64,000 nt of DNA from an uncultured Desulfobacterium sp. (lineage in GTDB: Bacteria > Desulfobacterota > DSM-4660 > Desulfatiglandales > Desulfatiglandaceae): the NCBI GenBank assembly GCA_900258555.1, contig LT984854.1, forward strand, positions 391,156 to 455,155. Direction: 5' to 3'. Within the stretch, counting starts at the first letter, position 1; the number at the start of each line of letters is the position of its first letter. Made by a program: the position numbers and the translations under genes. Under the pieces are notes generated by a model. It had not been told where the DNA came from and did not search any database. It saw nothing but the letters and a program-made list of their open reading frames with translations. Positions 23,948 through 34,233 of the stretch are shown here, piece after piece.

Positions 23948-26377
23948 CTAATCTTCCTCCATCACCTTTGCTACTCCAATGACCTTTTCGCCCTGCCCGA
24001 GATTTATAAGTTTAACGCCCTGGGTATTGCGACCTATTATGGAGATATCTGCAACCCGCAACCTTATTATCTTTCCCTGATCTGTAATGATCATCAATTG
24101 ATCAACCTGAGATACCTGGCAGGAATAGACTATAAGGCCGTTTCTCTCTGTAGTCTTTATAGTCAATATCCCTTTGCCGCCCCTGGTCTGCCGCCGGTAT
24201 TCATCTGTATTAGTCCTTTTACCGTATCCATTTTGAGTAACAGTCAAAATTGTTGCGCCTTCTCCGCTGTCAAGGACCTCAAGGCCTACAACTGAATTTC
24301 CGGGCTCAAGCCTTATTCCGATATTACCTGTCGCAACCCTGCCCATGTTTCTTAATTCAGATTCATGGAACCTGATGGATTTACCGTCTTTTGTGGAAAG
24401 AAATATATCCTGTTCACCGTTTGAAATACGCACTGCAATCAACTCATCATCCTCTCTGATATTGAGTGCAATAATGCCAGCGGATCTCGGATGGCTGAAA
24501 GACGCAAGGTCTGTCTTTTTAATCAGCCCGTTCTTGGTCGCCATTACCACATATCTTTCCTGTTCAAAATCCCTCACAGATAATGTGGCGGCCACGCGTT
24601 CCCCATTTTTTAGATCCAGCAGATTTACAATGGCCTTGCCCCTGGATATGCGGCTCCCCTCCGGGATTTCATGCACCTTTTTCCAATAGACGCGGCCCAA
24701 ACTGGTAAAGAAAAGCAGGTAGTCATGAGAGGAGGCGACAAACAAAAGCTCGATAAAATCCTCTTCTTTGGGTCTGGCCCCTGTCAAACCCTTTCCGCCC
24801 CGGCGCTGTGCCCTATAGAGGCTGACAGGATTTCTCTTTATGTAGCCCTCATGGCTGAAGGTTACCACCATATCTTCTTCGGCGATCAGATCTTCAACAT
24901 CAATGTCTTCCACGTCTTCGATGATCTCTGTCCTGCGTTCATCTCCGTATTGTTCCTGCACCAGTTTTATCTCATCCTTTATTATCTGAAGGACCAAAGC
25001 CGGGTTTTCTATAATCTCCTTGAATCTGGCAATGTCCTTTATCAGATCCCGGTGTTCGCTGTTGATCTTTTCTCGCTCAAGGCCGGTCAACCTCTGCAGC
25101 CTCATTTCCAATATTGCCTGGGCCTGTATATCAGATAAGGTAAATTCATTTATCAGCCTGCTTTTTGCCTCCTTGGGATCGGGCGAGGTTCTGATCAACT
25201 CGATTACATCGTCAAGAAAATCAAGGGCCTTTTTGAGTCCTTCAAGGATATGTGCCCGTTCTTCCGCCTTTTTAAGGTCGTAGATTGTCCTTCGTATTAC
25301 AATCTCGCGGCGGTGATATATAAACTGTTGGAGGATATCCTTTAAAGTGAGGACCTGAGGACGACCGTTTACAATGGCGAGCAATATTATCCCGAATGAA
25401 GTCTCCATTTGGGTGAACTTGTAAAGGTTATTGAGGATCACCATTGCAACTGCGTCTCGTTTGACCTCTATTACAATCCTCATTCCTTCTCTGTCGGATT
25501 CGTCCCTGATCTCGGAAATACCATCTATCTTTTTTTCCTGAACCAGTTCGCCGAATCTCTCAAGGAGTCTGGTCTTGTTTACCTGATAGGGAATCTCAGA
25601 TATAATAATTTTTTCTTTATTATTTGCGAGCTTCTCAATAAAGGCCCTTCCTCTTATTCGTATAATACCCCTTCCTGTTGTATAGGCCTCTTGAATTCCC
25701 CTCCTTCCAATAATAAAACCTGCGGTTGGAAAATCAGGTCCGGCTATATCCCTCATCAGCTCTGTTATACTACTATCAGGATTATCAATAAAATTCCTGA
25801 TTGCGTTACACACCTCTGTCAGATTGTGGGGCGGTATATTTGTCGCCATGCCGACCGCTATACCGGATGAGCCGTTTAATAGGAGATTAGGGATAGTAGT
25901 AGGCAGCAATACAGGCTCAAGGAGTGATCCGTCGTAGGTAGGTATGAAATCAACAGTCTCCTTTTCCAGATCAGACAGGAAATCCTGTGCAAGCCTGGTC
26001 ATCCTGACCTCTGTATACCTCATCGCAGCCGGAGGATCACCGTCAACAGAGCCGAAATTTCCCTGCCCGTCCACCAATTGATATCTCATGGAGAAATCCT
26101 GGGCCATTCTGACTATCGTATCATATACAGCCGTATCTCCATGGGGATGGTATTTACCTATAACATCGCCGACAACCCTGGCTGATTTTTTAAAGGACTT
26201 GTTAAAATAATTTTTAAGCTCATGCATGGCGAAAAGCACACGCCTGTGCACAGGCTTGAGCCCGTCTCTGACATCAGGGAGAGCCCTGCCCACGATCACG
26301 CTCATGGAGTATTCGAGATAAGACTTCTTCATCTCTTCTTCTATGCTTACAGAAGCATTATTCAGGTCCAGAATCAT
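23948..26377 (-). CDS. gyrA: DNA gyrase subunit A
   Basis: This 809-residue subunit cuts and rejoins DNA in gyrase. The active-site region [15 protein letters not shown] carries the catalytic Tyr near residue 121. The quinolone-determining region ([17 protein letters not shown]) is normal. The C-terminal DNA-wrapping domain includes a GyrA box, QRRGGKG, which marks it as true gyrase rather than topoisomerase IV. It follows gyrB in the leftward dnaA-dnaN-gyrB-gyrA order common near bacterial origins. Confidence 0.97.
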
Positions 26378-26420: not shown

Positions 26421-28832
<2,412 letters not shown>

Positions 28833-28842
28833 TTAATAAAAC

Positions 28843-29958
28843 TTATATTGTCATGGGCATTAGCAGACCGAGAAAACCGTTGTCCGCATCCCCCTTAATT
28901 ATGGTGGGTCTTTTTCTTTCGGCAAACGACAAATGAACTGTATCGCTTTCCATTGACTGTATCATCTCAATAAAATACTGCGGATTAAACCCCACCTCTC
29001 TCCTTTCGCCATTGTATGACACATCCATTTTTTCCTGAGCATCTCCCAGGTCAGGGTTGGTTGAAACCAGTTCCATGGAATCATCTTCAAGGATAATTTT
29101 TACAGCCCTGTATCTGTCATTAGTCAAGATCAACATCCTTCTCATTGCCTCTAAAAGAGATATCCTGTCTACATCTATGACAAATTCTTCATGTTCAGGG
29201 ATAACTGCTTGATAGTCTGGAAATTTTGTCTCCAGCAAACGCACGACAAGAAGGCTGTTTTCTCTCTTTGCAACGCAATGATTTGCCTTAAAACCTATCT
29301 GGATATGTCCCCCTTCAATGCCCATTTTATTTAATTCCAGCATGCCCTTTTTAGGAATCATTATTCCATCACCAAGTTCCAGAGTTTCAAGACCCTCAAC
29401 CGCCTTGTCAACCATTGACAAACGATGTCCGTCGGTTGCGACAAATCTTAAAACCTGATTGCCGTCAATATCCACTTTCTGTACAAATACCCCGGAAAGC
29501 TTAAAACCGGAATCCTCTCTTGTTACGGAATAAACCGTCTTATTTATCATCTCTCTAAGTATCTCGCCTTCTATCTGCACCATGGAAACCCCTTCAGGTT
29601 CGGCAAATACAGGGTACTCATCCGCAGGCAGGCATGCCAGATTGAATCGAGCCACACTGTCTGATATAAAAATCCAATTATTTTCCTTTTCTTTTATATG
29701 AATATTTGGTGCTTTACTTTCCTTTAGAATCTCAAATAATTTTCTAGCAGATATTGTAACGCTTCCCTCCTCAATAACCTCGGCAGGCAATATCTGCTGA
29801 AAACCCAGTTCCAGATCGGTAGCCGAAACATGGACTGCAGAAGGACCTACTGAAAGTAAAATTGTTGAAAGGATGGGCATTGTGCTTTTTCTTTCAGTAA
29901 TGCTTTGAACTTTTGATACACATTTATAGAGTTCTTCTCGATCAATTTTTACTTCCAT
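28843..29958 (-). CDS. dnaN: DNA polymerase III beta subunit (sliding clamp)
   Basis: This 371-residue ring-forming processivity clamp is made of three similar domains. Recognisable parts are the start KIDREELYKCVSKVQSIT, ISARKLFEILKE, RFVATDGHRLSMVDK and the C-terminal FLGLLMPMTI, which fits the usual ending (..YVIMPMRL-type). A GGAGG site precedes the ATG. It lies between dnaA and gyrB, leftward, in the standard origin order. Confidence 0.95.
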   Translation of the reverse strand: MEVKIDREELYKCVSKVQSITERKSTMPILSTILLSVGPSAVHVSATDLELGFQQILPAEVIEEGSVTISARKLFEILKESKAPNIHIKEKENNWIFISDSVARFNLACLPADEYPVFAEPEGVSMVQIEGEILREMINKTVYSVTREDSGFKLSGVFVQKVDIDGNQVLRFVATDGHRLSMVDKAVEGLETLELGDGIMIPKKGMLELNKMGIEGGHIQIGFKANHCVAKRENSLLVVRLLETKFPDYQAVIPEHEEFVIDVDRISLLEAMRRMLILTNDRYRAVKIILEDDSMELVSTNPDLGDAQEKMDVSYNGERREVGFNPQYFIEMIQSMESDTVHLSFAERKRPTIIKGDADNGFLGLLMPMTI

Positions 29959-30195
29959 GAATGCCTCCGCAAAAAGGTCTTTTTTTATTATTGGTTAACA
30001 TATTACATCTAAAAATAATAATAAAGAGGCTGTGAAATTGTCTGACAATAGAATATCCTTTTGAAATGCAAATGGATTTTTTTAGTATATTTTCAAAGAA
30101 TATCTGTCATATCCTTAAATTGAACAACCCGTTAGAACCTGACAGGACCTTTTAAAAAGATTCTGACAGAGTTTTAAAATATCATTGTTCATAAT
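29959..30195. other. dnaA-dnaN intergenic region, candidate origin segment with CTGACA repeats
   Basis: This 237-base AT-rich region contains no reading frame. It has no good match to the standard DnaA box TTATNCACA. Four copies of a TCTGACA-like word occur: TCTGACA at 30041-30047, its reverse TCTGTCA at 30103-30109, CCTGACAGG at 30138-30146 and TCTGACAGA at 30162-30170. The last two are near-palindromes. The left end carries a T-run and AT-rich stretch (TTTTTTTATTATTGG) that could unwind. Whether this is oriC is inference from gene order. Confidence 0.4.
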
Positions 30196-31509
30196 TTATA
30201 AGCCCTGTGAAAGAAGATTCTGTAACTTATTTAAGTCATCTGTAAGTGTGTTGTTTGATTCTTTATCTCTGTTAATGCATTTGACTGCATTGATAATAGT
30301 GGAATGATCTTTATTGCCAAATGCCTTTGCGATTTCTTTGTATGATAATCCTGTCAGTTTCCTGCTTAGATACATAGAGATATGTCTGGGATATGAGTAC
30401 CGATGAGTCTTTTTATTTGATAAAAGCTCCGCCAAGGAGATTTTAAAATACTCCGCGGTGATCTTTTGAATATCATCCACAGCGATGTTGCTGACATGTT
30501 TGTTTGATAATAGTGATTTTACTAGAGATATATTAATCTCTTTTTTATTAAGCGAAACATAAGCACCTATTGTTACTATATGCTGAAACAGGTTTTTCAG
30601 GTCATATGAGGAACTTGCCAGAAAAAAGGCCACATCATCCGGGATGGATATTTTTTCATCCTTACCTTTTTTCTTTATAATTTTCATCCTTGTCTTCGAG
30701 TCAGGGTTCTTGATCTCTGCAAGAACCCCCCATTCCAATCTCGACCTCAGCTCAGGCATCAGGTTTTTTATAAGCCCTGGCGGCAGTTTTCCAGCCAATG
30801 CAATATATTTTTTGGATTCCAAGTAATTATTGATTATAGATATCAGCTCCTTTTGTAGTTTTTCTCTGCCGGATATCAAATGAATATCGTCAATAAGTAA
30901 TAAATCAGAATTATTATAGCTAGCTCTAAATTTAATTAAATTTCTATTTTTTGCTGAAATTGAGAAATCTGATGATAGTTGATCTATTGATACATATATG
31001 ATATTTGATTCGGGATTATTAATAACTACTTGATTTCCGATGGCATTTAAAAGATGAGTCTTACCACAAACAGAGCTGCTGAAAATATATAACGGGTTGT
31101 AAATTGTTGAGTTTTTACCAACTATATCAGAGGCGGAAGAATAGGCAAATCGGTTGCCTTTTGCTATAACAAAATTGCTGAACGTAAAGGACTTATTTAA
31201 GTTATTAGCACCAACTACTATAGGTTGATTTTTATACTGAAAAGAGCTTGTCTTTCCCGGCGTTATTTGTGCATAAATAAATCGAATCTCCGGAAGACAA
31301 CTTAGATGGTTTTTAAAACAGTCTTTTATATTGGCAAGATAGTTTTCTGTAAGCCAGCTTGCAATGTACTTGTTTGGGACCTCTATCACGGCAATGTCTT
31401 TGTCCAGGCTGATCAGGGAAGTGTTGGCAAACCAGGAGCCGATCTCTGATTTTGAAACCACACCGCTTAGGGTTGAGGTAATCTGGTCCCAAATAGTTTT
31501 TGTATTCAT
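30196..31509 (-). CDS. dnaA: Chromosomal replication initiator DnaA, with degenerate nucleotide-binding motifs
   Basis: This 437-residue protein has recognisable DnaA domains: an N-terminal DnaA_N-like part, AAA+ (about 110-320) and a well-kept C-terminal DNA-binding domain (YPRHISMYLSRKLTGLSYKE, then GNKDHSTI). The Walker A normally reads GGxGxGKT. Here it is SSSVCGKT (residues 144-151), so only GKT survives. Walker B is intact (LLIDDIH, Asp207-208) and the arginine-finger region RSRLEWG is kept. The sensor I TSD is replaced by AGK and the sensor II RELEGAL motif by KNLFQHI. Base composition is more AT-rich than its neighbours. Gene order says it is the true initiator. Confidence 0.9.
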   Translation of the reverse strand: MNTKTIWDQITSTLSGVVSKSEIGSWFANTSLISLDKDIAVIEVPNKYIASWLTENYLANIKDCFKNHLSCLPEIRFIYAQITPGKTSSFQYKNQPIVVGANNLNKSFTFSNFVIAKGNRFAYSSASDIVGKNSTIYNPLYIFSSSVCGKTHLLNAIGNQVVINNPESNIIYVSIDQLSSDFSISAKNRNLIKFRASYNNSDLLLIDDIHLISGREKLQKELISIINNYLESKKYIALAGKLPPGLIKNLMPELRSRLEWGVLAEIKNPDSKTRMKIIKKKGKDEKISIPDDVAFFLASSSYDLKNLFQHIVTIGAYVSLNKKEINISLVKSLLSNKHVSNIAVDDIQKITAEYFKISLAELLSNKKTHRYSYPRHISMYLSRKLTGLSYKEIAKAFGNKDHSTIINAVKCINRDKESNNTLTDDLNKLQNLLSQGL

Positions 31510-31612
31510 CACAGTCGCTTATATAGGTATAGTAAAAAGTTTATAGCACCAGATATTGTATTAAAATCCTGGTTATATATCAACAAAAATATGACTTAAC
31601 AATGGGGGGATA
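31510..31612. promoter_or_regulatory. Divergent intergenic region between dnaA and cooC
   Basis: Only about 103 AT-rich bases separate the two divergent genes, so their promoters must overlap or share regulators. I could not pick a convincing -35/-10 pair for either, and no standard DnaA box is visible. The right end holds the strong cooC ribosome site GGGGGGA. Confidence 0.4.
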
Positions 31613-32362
31613 ATGACTTATTCAATTGGTTTTGCAGGAAAAGGCGGCACAGGAAAGACGACTGTAGCAGGGCTTCTTGTCAAGTACCTTGTGGAAAACA
31701 AAAAAACGCCTGTGTTGGCGGTTGATGCTGATTCAAATTCAAATCTGAATGAGGTATTGGGTCTTGAGGTGACAGAGACCTTGGGCGATGCAAGAGAGGA
31801 AATGAAACGCGGTGTATCAAGCGGCATGACAAAAGATATTTTTATGGAGATGAAAGTCCAGCAGGCAATTGTCGAGTCAAAAGGTTTTGACCTGGTGGTG
31901 ATGGGAAGACCTGAAGGAGCCGGATGCTATTGCGCGGCAAATACCCTGCTGACAGCATTTCTTGAAAAACTAACTGATAACTACAAATATGTTGTTATTG
32001 ATAATGAGGCGGGGATGGAACATATCAGCCGTCTGACCACAAATAATATAGACCTGTTGATTGCGGTTTCCGACCCTACCCGAAGGGGAATACAGGCGGC
32101 ATCGCGGATTATGGAACTTACCGATGAACTGGGTCTGAATATTAAGAGAAAATGCCTGATCGTCAACCAAACCAGGCAAGGGCAGGAAGAGTCAATATTA
32201 CAGGCTGTTAAAGAACATAAACTTGAGCTGATAGGCACTGTCCCTGAAGACGATAAGTTGCAGGAGTTAGATCTCAAAGGAATTCCCACTGTGCAACTGG
32301 GCCCGGAAAGCCTAGCTGTTTCAGCGGCATATAAGATATTTGATGGGCTTTTTAAAAAATAG
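31613..32362 (+). CDS. cooC: CODH maturation ATPase CooC
   Basis: This 249-residue MinD/ParA-type ATPase helps insert nickel into the C-cluster of carbon monoxide dehydrogenase. The deviant Walker A (GKGGTGKTTVAGLL) starts near residue 8. VDADSNSNLNEVLG follows. The GCYCAAN motif near residue 104 holds the Cys-X-Cys pair that binds nickel or zinc across the dimer. The switch ending in VIDNEAGMEHISR is normal. It opens the CODH/ACS cluster and is divergent from dnaA. cooT, another nickel-delivery gene, lies about 22 kb to the left. Confidence 0.92.
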   Translation: MTYSIGFAGKGGTGKTTVAGLLVKYLVENKKTPVLAVDADSNSNLNEVLGLEVTETLGDAREEMKRGVSSGMTKDIFMEMKVQQAIVESKGFDLVVMGRPEGAGCYCAANTLLTAFLEKLTDNYKYVVIDNEAGMEHISRLTTNNIDLLIAVSDPTRRGIQAASRIMELTDELGLNIKRKCLIVNQTRQGQEESILQAVKEHKLELIGTVPEDDKLQELDLKGIPTVQLGPESLAVSAAYKIFDGLFKK

Positions 32363-32658
32363 TGTCCATATATTGTACTTTATTTAATCAATTTATACAA
32401 TATATAGAAAAAAGAATTTACTTGAAACTGTTTTAAATCATTAGAAAAATTACTTGACAACGAGCGCATGTTTATTTATTTTCGAACCCAAATTTTATAT
32501 TGAAGAAACCGTAATTTTTGTAATTGATTGTTATAATTTTCACAATTAACTCAGGAAGATAAGTATCTTTAATTAAGTCAATGGATCGCGGCCATTGTTT
32601 CGTGCCGCGAATTTATTTTCACCAAACTGAGATATTATCCAGAAAAGGAGGTAGAACA
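32363..32658 (+). promoter_or_regulatory. Promoter and leader of the acsD-cooS-acsB-acsC-acsE operon
   Basis: This gap of about 296 bases holds a strong sigma-70-type promoter: TTGACA at 32454-32459, a 17-base spacer and TATTTT at 32477-32482. The leader of about 170 bases includes a perfect 7-bp hairpin (TCGCGGC at 32586-32592, GCCGCGA at 32604-32610). It ends in AAGGAGG (32645-32651), the acsD ribosome site. An in-frame ATG at 32581 lies in front of that hairpin and is rejected as a start. Confidence 0.6.
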
Positions 32659-34233
32659 TTGGCCTTTGAGATTCCCAAACAGCCCTATTCCGGAAAAATA
32701 GGGGAAACAAAGATAGGAACAGGGGGTGGTGCTGTTACTCTTGGGGGAGAAGACTCATATCCATTTCATCTTTTTGAGGGCAAGATGCCTAACCAACCAA
32801 AGATTGCCATGGAAGTATGGGACTATGATCCCTCGGAAGAATGGCCTGCCGCAGCGGTTGCGCCCTTTAAAGACGTTATATCTTCACCAGAAAAATGGGC
32901 AAAAAAGTGTGTGGAAAAATACGGCGCAGACATAATTGTTCTTCAACTCAAGAGCACTGACCCTAATGGGATGAACAGAGATGCAAATGAGGCAGCGGAA
33001 GTAGCAAAAAAGGTCTCAGACGCTGTAAAGGTGCCATTGGTTGTCCTGGGCACGGCAAACGCCCAGAAAGACGAAGATGTCTTAAAAAAGATATCAGAGC
33101 TCTGTGAAGGAAAAAACGTCGCCTTGGGGCCTGTGGAAGAAAAAAACCACAAGGGTATCGGCGCCAGTGCCTTGGGCTACGGTCATACCATAGTCGCATC
33201 CACACCCATTGATGTTAACCTTGCAAAACAATTAAATATTCTCCTTGCCAATCTTGGCGTTAAGAGCGACAAGATCATAATTGATCCGACAACCGGCGGC
33301 CTTGGCTACGGTCTGGAATACAGTTATTCCGTCATGGAACGTATCATGATGGCGGCCCTGACCCAGGACGACGATAAACTGATGCTCCCCATGATAAACA
33401 ACGTGGGAAACGAGGTCTGGAAGAGCAAAGAGGCAAAACAGACCATTGAAGATGCGCCCACCCTGGGCGACCCCGAAAAGCGTGCAGTATTAATGGAAAC
33501 CGTTGCCGCAGTAGCTTATCTGATGGCCGGCTCAAACGTGCTGATCTTAAGACACCCGGAGACCGTACGGCTTATCAGGTCCTTTATCGGACTTATGACA
33601 AACGGAGGAAGCGCCGGCGATATCCAAGGAATAGCCAAGAATCTGGAACCGGCTGCTGTGGATCTTATAGCTCTTTCACCCAAACCAAACTTGGATTTTG
33701 GCAAGGCAGAAGAGGCACCAAAGGAAAAACCCAAGGCGGCCAAGAAAGAGGCCCCGGCTCCCAAGGCAGCCAAAGCGGCCCCAGCCCCGGCACCAAAGGT
33801 GGAAAAGAAGGTAGAGGAAAAACCCAAGGTAGAGGCAGCCCCGAAACCCGTGGAAGATGCCAAGGCAAAGGCAGAAGCAGAGGCAAAGGCCAAAGCGGAT
33901 GCTGAAGCCAAGGTAAAGGCAGACGCAGAGGCAAAGAAAAAGGCAGAAGCGGACGCCAAGGCAAAGGCAGAGGCGGATGCCAAGGCAAAGGCACAACAGG
34001 AAGCCGATGCAAAGAAGAAGGCAGAGGCAGACGCAAGGGCAAAGAGAGACGCAGAGGAAGCCGAGCTGAGACTGAAAAGGGCTGAAGAACGCGAGAAGCT
34101 TTCGGCCGCAAGAGAAGGCAAAGAAAAAGAAGTATCCATGACACCTTCATCTGAACAGAAAAATGAACAGGAAAGAATCATTGAAAGGTTGAACAGGATA
34201 CACAGACGAATTCCCTTGTACAAATGGAATTAG
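32659..34233 (+). CDS. acsD: CODH/ACS corrinoid protein delta subunit with long Ala/Lys/Glu tail
   Basis: The start is TTG, 7 bases after a perfect AAGGAGG, giving 524 residues. Residues 1 to about 346 form the TIM-barrel small subunit of the corrinoid iron-sulfur protein, which partners AcsC in passing a methyl group to acetyl-CoA synthase. Landmarks are VLGTANAQKDEDVL, IIDPTTGGLGYGLEYSYS and LRHPETVRLIRSFI. From about 347 to 495 follows a low-complexity Pro/Ala/Lys then (K/D)AEAKAKA-type repeat, like the helical part of TolA. A short end, RLNRIHRRIPLYKWN, follows. The tail adds roughly 175 residues to the usual protein. It is first in the operon before cooS. Confidence 0.9.
   Translation: MAFEIPKQPYSGKIGETKIGTGGGAVTLGGEDSYPFHLFEGKMPNQPKIAMEVWDYDPSEEWPAAAVAPFKDVISSPEKWAKKCVEKYGADIIVLQLKSTDPNGMNRDANEAAEVAKKVSDAVKVPLVVLGTANAQKDEDVLKKISELCEGKNVALGPVEEKNHKGIGASALGYGHTIVASTPIDVNLAKQLNILLANLGVKSDKIIIDPTTGGLGYGLEYSYSVMERIMMAALTQDDDKLMLPMINNVGNEVWKSKEAKQTIEDAPTLGDPEKRAVLMETVAAVAYLMAGSNVLILRHPETVRLIRSFIGLMTNGGSAGDIQGIAKNLEPAAVDLIALSPKPNLDFGKAEEAPKEKPKAAKKEAPAPKAAKAAPAPAPKVEKKVEEKPKVEAAPKPVEDAKAKAEAEAKAKADAEAKVKADAEAKKKAEADAKAKAEADAKAKAQQEADAKKKAEADARAKRDAEEAELRLKRAEEREKLSAAREGKEKEVSMTPSSEQKNEQERIIERLNRIHRRIPLYKWN

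Follow-up and report, generated by a model that had tools for sequence, protein, structure and literature searches.

A second full-length DnaA accompanies a canonical-locus DnaA with degenerate ATPase motifs in an uncultured Desulfobacterium sp. and related families

To our knowledge, bacterial DnaA is generally treated as a single-copy, essential and ATP-switched protein. Two dnaA genes per genome occur in the Chlamydiales and in Desulfovibrio, which carries dnaA-1 and dnaA-2, and eukaryotic ORC and the clamp loaders are hetero-AAA+ assemblies that include catalytically dead subunits. The roles of individual residues have been described for the E. coli protein: sensor I underpins its very high affinity for ATP, R285 and R281 serve DnaA-DnaA action, and V211 and R245 serve the binding of single-stranded DNA (PMC5742627; PMC3401641), whereas R334 is required for hydrolysis, initiation complexes being formed without it (PMC5742627).

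The DNA analyzed here (the window) is a stretch of 64,000 nucleotides of contig LT984854.1 from an uncultured Desulfobacterium sp. An earlier note, made from its letters alone, had recognized the order dnaA-dnaN-gyrB-gyrA as the canonical chromosomal locus. Open reading frames and synteny bear out this order, which extends to cooC-dnaA-dnaN-gyrB-gyrA when the cooC-like gene upstream is included (Table 1). The dnaA product (DnaA1) comprises the three DnaA domains, Pfam DnaA_N, Bac_DnaA and Bac_DnaA_C, with scores of 44.3, 142.5 and 93.7 bits against cut-offs of 24.6, 23 and 31.5, and it reaches 375 bits with the NCBI DnaA equivalog TIGR00362 (cut-off 343.9). Like Hda, DnaA1 is a DnaA-related AAA+ protein present alongside a full DnaA; unlike Hda, which has neither domain I nor domain IV, it possesses both, and its score with the Hda model (104.2 bits) falls below the cut-off of 194.8, so the identification of DnaA1 as Hda was rejected. 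An AlphaFold2 model of the protein without ATP (mean pLDDT 84.9) overlays domain III of B. subtilis DnaA at 1.7 Å (37% identity) and the crystal structure of DnaA domain IV with its box at 0.7 Å; because of these superpositions, the fold is predicted to be retained. Elsewhere in the window, an acetyl-CoA decarbonylase/synthase-like protein (32581-34233) ends in a long low-complexity tail rich in Ala, Lys and Glu (33690-34110).

Table 1. Coordinates of the dnaA1 locus and of the DnaA1 motifs in the window, and of dnaA2 in the same genome (G000). Residue names follow E. coli DnaA.
Feature	Position	Strand	Remarks
gyrA	23948-26377	-	ORF and synteny
gyrB	26421-28823	-	ORF and synteny
dnaN, 3' neighbor of dnaA1	28843-29958	-	ORF and synteny
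dnaA1-dnaN spacer	29959-30195		GC 28%; TTATCCACA cluster absent
dnaA1 (degenerate AAA+ motifs, canonical locus)	30196-31512	-	438 aa; GTG at 31512, ATG of codon 2 at 31509
Domain IV recognition helix FGNKDHST	30298-30321	-	near canonical GGKDHST
Sensor II KNLFQHI (expected RELEGAL)	30577-30597	-	Arg to Lys; context DLKNLFQHI
Arginine finger R258 (E. coli R285)	30739-30741	-	box VII ELRSRLEWG; retained in 33/33 orthologues
Glu at box VII R281 position	30751-30753	-	
Sensor I AGK (expected TSD)	30787-30795	-	context ALAGK
Walker B LLLIDD, intact	30886-30903	-	context LLLIDDIH
Asn at R227 position (AID-1, DnaA-DnaA contact)	30913-30915	-	
Ser at V211 position (H motif, ssDNA binding)	30961-30963	-	always I/V in canonical DnaAs and DnaA2s
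Walker A SSSVCGKT (expected GGxGLGKT)	31057-31080	-	three glycines gone; P-loop Gly-Lys-Thr retained
cooC-like ATPase (carbon monoxide dehydrogenase maturation type)	31613-32362	+	divergent from dnaA1
dnaA2, second full-length DnaA	G000:C2:580612-581925		about 450 aa; contig differs from that of dnaA1

In its three domains, its dnaN/gyrB locus, its canonical-like recognition helix, its arginine finger and its Walker B motif, DnaA1 resembles the DnaA of E. coli and B. subtilis, from which it differs by the loss of the P-loop glycines, of sensor I, of the sensor II Arg and of the R281, V211 and R227 equivalents, as well as by the company of a second full-length DnaA. Among the features expected of an ATP-dependent initiator, the Walker B Asp-Asp pair and the arginine finger (R285) are present, and the sensor I Asp (D269) and the sensor II Arg (R334) are missing. 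The extended Walker A reads FSSSVCGKTH, so that the pattern GxxxxGK[ST] is replaced by SxxxxGKT, with Ser in 79% of 33 orthologues; a one-residue deletion common to the clade lies immediately before sensor II; and the single-stranded DNA-binding positions of the H and B motifs, V211 and R245, are occupied by Ser and Lys, the former being mostly Ser or Thr among the orthologues. The earlier note had described the altered Walker A and sensors, the intact Walker B pair and the well-kept DNA-binding domain correctly, but the erosion reaches further than it had stated, as it also affects the V211, R227 and R281 equivalents.

Residues were tabulated in E. coli numbering for 33 DnaA1s, 43 DnaA2s and 83 canonical DnaAs, using as a ruler an E. 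coli DnaA sequence that is a few residues short at the C-terminus and on which 19 landmarks matched published numbers. In the canonical proteins, K178, G177, D235, D236, D269, R281, R285 and R334 are at or near 100%. The changes seen in the window are conserved in the 33 DnaA1s, a check proposed in the earlier note: these proteins retain K178, G177, D235 and R285 (100% each), D236 and H434 (97% each) and, in domain I, F46 (Phe/Tyr in 100%) and E21 (Glu in 79%); little is left of G172, the first P-loop Gly (18%), G175 (36%), R227 (12%), V211 and R281 (9% each), D269 is present in about 3 of 33 and R334 is Arg in a single sequence. With GKT and Walker B intact, DnaA1 may possibly still bind nucleotide.

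The earlier note had also considered that this dnaA might be a paralog with another copy elsewhere, and had proposed a genome search. A PF00308 search of the window genome (5.43 Mb, 98.9% complete) yielded exactly two matches, dnaA1 and dnaA2, and no third one in the whole genome. Two dnaA genes thus share one genome, as in the Chlamydiales and Desulfovibrio. DnaA2 contains the three DnaA domains, scores 397.7 bits, above the DnaA cut-off, and shares 27% identity with DnaA1. The motifs of DnaA2 include CSDTGLGKTH, LLLEEVHF (Walker B), FTSS (sensor I), SRLTSG and RQMESA (sensor II), and its recognition helix, NRSHSTVV, is changed with respect to the canonical one. All 43 DnaA2s have Ile or Val at position 211, R227, K243, R285, R334, G175 and K178; they depart from canonical proteins in a mostly Glu-Glu Walker B, in the absence of the first P-loop Gly, D269 and R281, and in a changed D433. 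Judged by these motifs, the ATP site of DnaA2 looks usable. The proposal that ATP control of initiation is altered or lost is therefore plausible for DnaA1, whose orthologues also lack sensors I and II and the P-loop glycines, but does not extend to the cell, because DnaA2 retains this usable-looking site. In the window genome, dnaA2 adjoins an rng-like gene. Upstream of dnaA2 (within about 350 bases; locus L072 and most relatives) there is a conserved CTTTGACA element with a spacer of about 17 and a TAnAAt-like -10, probably a strong conserved sigma-70 promoter.

The 33 DnaA1 orthologues with a common erosion pattern come from two families of the order (f1 and f2), and most genomes of these families contain both DnaA1 and DnaA2. 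A DnaA1-type gene, whole or as a fragment, was found in 35 of 40 f1/f2 genomes with a completeness of at least 90%, and dnaA1 and dnaA2 lie on one contig in 15 surveyed genomes, including the single-contig G046. The usual arrangement in relatives is dnaA1>dnaN>gyrB>gyrA and then a convergent dnaA2, mostly about 10-12 kb from dnaA1. In the sister families f3-f6, DnaA2 is present in 12 of 12 genomes and DnaA1 in none. The single-contig genome G041 has a dnaN-gyrB-gyrA operon without dnaA, which adjoins yidC-, jag- and mnmE-like genes and shows an acyl-CoA dehydrogenase-like gene at the expected place of dnaA; its sole DnaA is of the DnaA2 type and lies about 150 kb away. Therefore, unless such genomes encode an unrelated initiator, a DnaA2 is sufficient to run a chromosome on its own.

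Family f18 combines a DnaA2-type gene with a DnaA of intact motifs (GGxGLGKT, TSD, RTRFEWG and VRVLEG), which in the f18 genome G069 lies in cooC-dnaA-dnaN synteny. Because the cooC-like neighbor is common to f18 and the f1/f2 relatives, the intact f18 protein can be tied to the locus of the window gene, and the f18 state, an intact canonical-locus DnaA plus DnaA2, is likely ancestral. Family f42 is intermediate: its dnaN-adjacent copy has no sensor I and carries the deletion before sensor II, and R334 is retained in most members. In an IQ-TREE phylogeny, the DnaA2s of all three lineages formed one clade (SH-aLRT 100) and the f1/f2 DnaA1s another (SH-aLRT 94), and all these types grouped with the f18 canonical copy (88), apart from other canonical DnaAs; long branches were flagged in this tree, and the placement of the f42 DnaA1s is unsure. 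A pattern scan of contigs followed canonical P-loops and thus recovered only one close relative, so it was used mainly as a source of outgroups.

Several further observations were made in these genomes. Pfam DnaA_N is not detectable in the canonical-locus DnaA of G126 (L205), and Cys or His replaces the arginine finger in the partner DnaA2-type genes L203 and L204. The finger is lost in the DnaA2-type genes of G126 and G093, which suggested a reciprocal loss with the partner; this idea was dropped, since other f42 members keep the finger. The single-contig relative G046 encodes a second DnaN-like protein (G046:C1:4310380-4311480), 32% identical to the window DnaN, and in the single-contig G042 gyrB is split into two open frames adjoining dnaN (L347:6115-8490), which reflects either misassembly or a genuine break. 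In G011, ORFs of about 245-283 aa that match PF00308 and are nearly identical to one another occur by the dozen over many contigs; they probably encode helper ATPases of the IS21 type and indicate a heavy insertion-sequence load.

The dnaA1 gene is under purifying selection. Its NG86 omega ranged from 0.12 to 0.19 in six pairs, and that of dnaA2 from 0.07 to 0.11. In comparison, dnaN gave 0.03-0.09, a value that dnaA1 exceeded about two- to fourfold when the same pairs were compared, and the gyrase genes gave 0.02-0.07. Thus, dnaA1 is functional, yet the least constrained gene of the operon.

In the complete relative G046, the minimum of the cumulative GC skew (400 kb) falls at 1,374,149, within the dnaA1-dnaN spacer (dnaN end, 1,374,125; dnaA1 start, 1,374,615). 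This places DnaA1 at the probable origin, where it might still act as a true initiator. The skew of the window genome takes a local turn at 30 kb, and no clear regional switch was found in 400 kb around dnaA1 or around dnaA2. Clusters of TTATCCACA boxes (at most one mismatch) were found neither at dnaA1 or dnaA2 of the window genome, nor at the loci of 23 relatives, nor in 2 x 400 kb of the window genome, the whole of which has no same-strand TTATCCACA pair at most 30 bp apart. Across 80 genomes the box pattern is not a clean discriminator, although pairs 2-3 bp apart seem commoner in single-DnaA genomes in an after-the-fact count; box absence is therefore claimed only at the dnaA1 and dnaA2 loci. 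The dnaA1-dnaN spacer is AT-rich in most relatives, where a search for shared or repeated k-mers found only simple AT repeats, and AATAATAA, present in 9 of the 28 spacers, is no commoner there than in shuffled sequences. An AT-rich segment of the window spacer (30000-30030) contains TAATAATAA repeats resembling DnaA-trio repeats.

The reading that we favor, with a probability of roughly 0.5, is that ATP-dependent melting was handed to DnaA2 and that DnaA1 was retained as a degenerate, DNA-binding, finger-bearing partner after an ancient duplication. An ancestral canonical initiator would have given rise anciently to DnaA1, its positional descendant, and to DnaA2, which would have kept the ATP-binding pocket, the sensor II Arg, the arginine finger and the residues for binding single-stranded DNA; ATP-gated filament formation and origin melting would then have passed to DnaA2 in the order. 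In DnaA1, tight ATP binding would have disappeared with sensor I and the P-loop glycines, and hydrolysis with sensor II; the single-stranded DNA motif and part of the DnaA-DnaA contacts would be gone as well. Because of the known roles of these residues in E. coli (PMC5742627; PMC3401641), DnaA1 would be unable to gate or melt, and DnaA2 able to do so. Selection would maintain DnaA1 in an accessory role at the origin, where its domain IV probably binds double-stranded DNA and its intact arginine finger could dock onto ATP held by a DnaA2 neighbor; it may help to position the DnaA2 filament, to cap it or to restrict its extent, or may recruit the helicase via domain I. We infer the takeover of initiation by DnaA2 from the patterns of loss and retention, and we propose a physical partnership of the two proteins in a mixed assembly and an accessory role of DnaA1.

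The same locus would be compatible with DnaA1 remaining the chromosomal initiator, its site being weak or independent of ATP, and DnaA2 acting as a regulator or second initiator. The canonical position, the origin-like skew minimum at the 3' spacer in G046, the near-canonical domain IV and the intact GKT, Walker B and finger agree with this, as do the E. coli initiation complexes that form without R334 (PMC5742627). The favored reading is also weakened by DnaA2 being itself off-canon in its Glu-Glu Walker B and its lack of the first P-loop Gly, D269 and R281. Nevertheless, not only the ATP sensors of DnaA1 are gone but also its equivalents of V211, R227 and R281, it evolves faster than DnaA2, and families f3-f6 keep DnaA2 without dnaA1, all of which makes this explanation unlikely. 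The absence from f3-f6 could also be the end point of a graded erosion from f18 through f42 to f1/f2, DnaA1 being a relic on which constraint is weakening, whose main remaining use would be to regulate itself or, in a minor way, other genes before it is lost; its long branches and an omega that exceeds that of dnaN about two- to fourfold point in this direction. However, omega is well below 1, the ORFs are intact across two families, and the finger, the P-loop Lys and the Walker B Asp are nearly invariant despite very long branches, which is unexpected in a relic, and we judge such decay to be quite unlikely.

DnaA is known as a transcription factor in other bacteria, and domain IV belongs to the most conserved regions of DnaA1, as would be expected if it had become a dedicated transcription factor without a role at the origin. 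We regard this as improbable, since the retention of the finger, Walker B, the P-loop Lys and E21/F46 better fits DnaA-DnaA or helicase contacts, and the place of DnaA1 at the origin locus is fixed. As for error, the genomes are drafts and many are metagenome-assembled, but the erosion recurs in 33 orthologues. The earlier note had reasoned that orthologues with a normal GGVGLGKT would reveal a sequencing artefact; the only such positional orthologue is that of f18 (GGSGLGKT), and a sequencing error is excluded because the erosion is shared within f1/f2, as is contamination because both dnaA types share a contig in 15 genomes, leaving a negligible probability for explanations of this kind.

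The transfer of melting to DnaA2, with DnaA1 kept as its partner, might be taken one step further. We suggest, tentatively and as a rather doubtful extension, an ORC-like initiator of two diverged AAA+ subunits, in which DnaA2 would provide ATP and single-stranded DNA binding and DnaA1 a dead ATP site, an arginine finger, canonical box binding and, perhaps, a means of recruiting the helicase; the origin served would lack ordinary clusters of DnaA boxes. A degenerate ATP site with an intact arginine finger beside an ATP-competent paralogue would recall ORC and the clamp loaders as a functional analogy only, DnaA1-DnaA2 being a different system.

In the open-access literature, which our search covered, no described case was found of a canonical-locus DnaA with an eroded ATPase together with a partner sufficient alone in sister families. 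If the favored reading holds, a whole order would split the role of DnaA into two proteins, and the dnaA-dnaN locus alone would be insufficient to name the initiator. The phylum offers a natural series, with a family in which both ATP sites are intact, families with an eroded canonical copy and families without it. This series would allow one to ask which protein needs ATP affinity, hydrolysis, single-stranded DNA binding and box binding, and it bears on whether the DnaA-ATP switch is universal.
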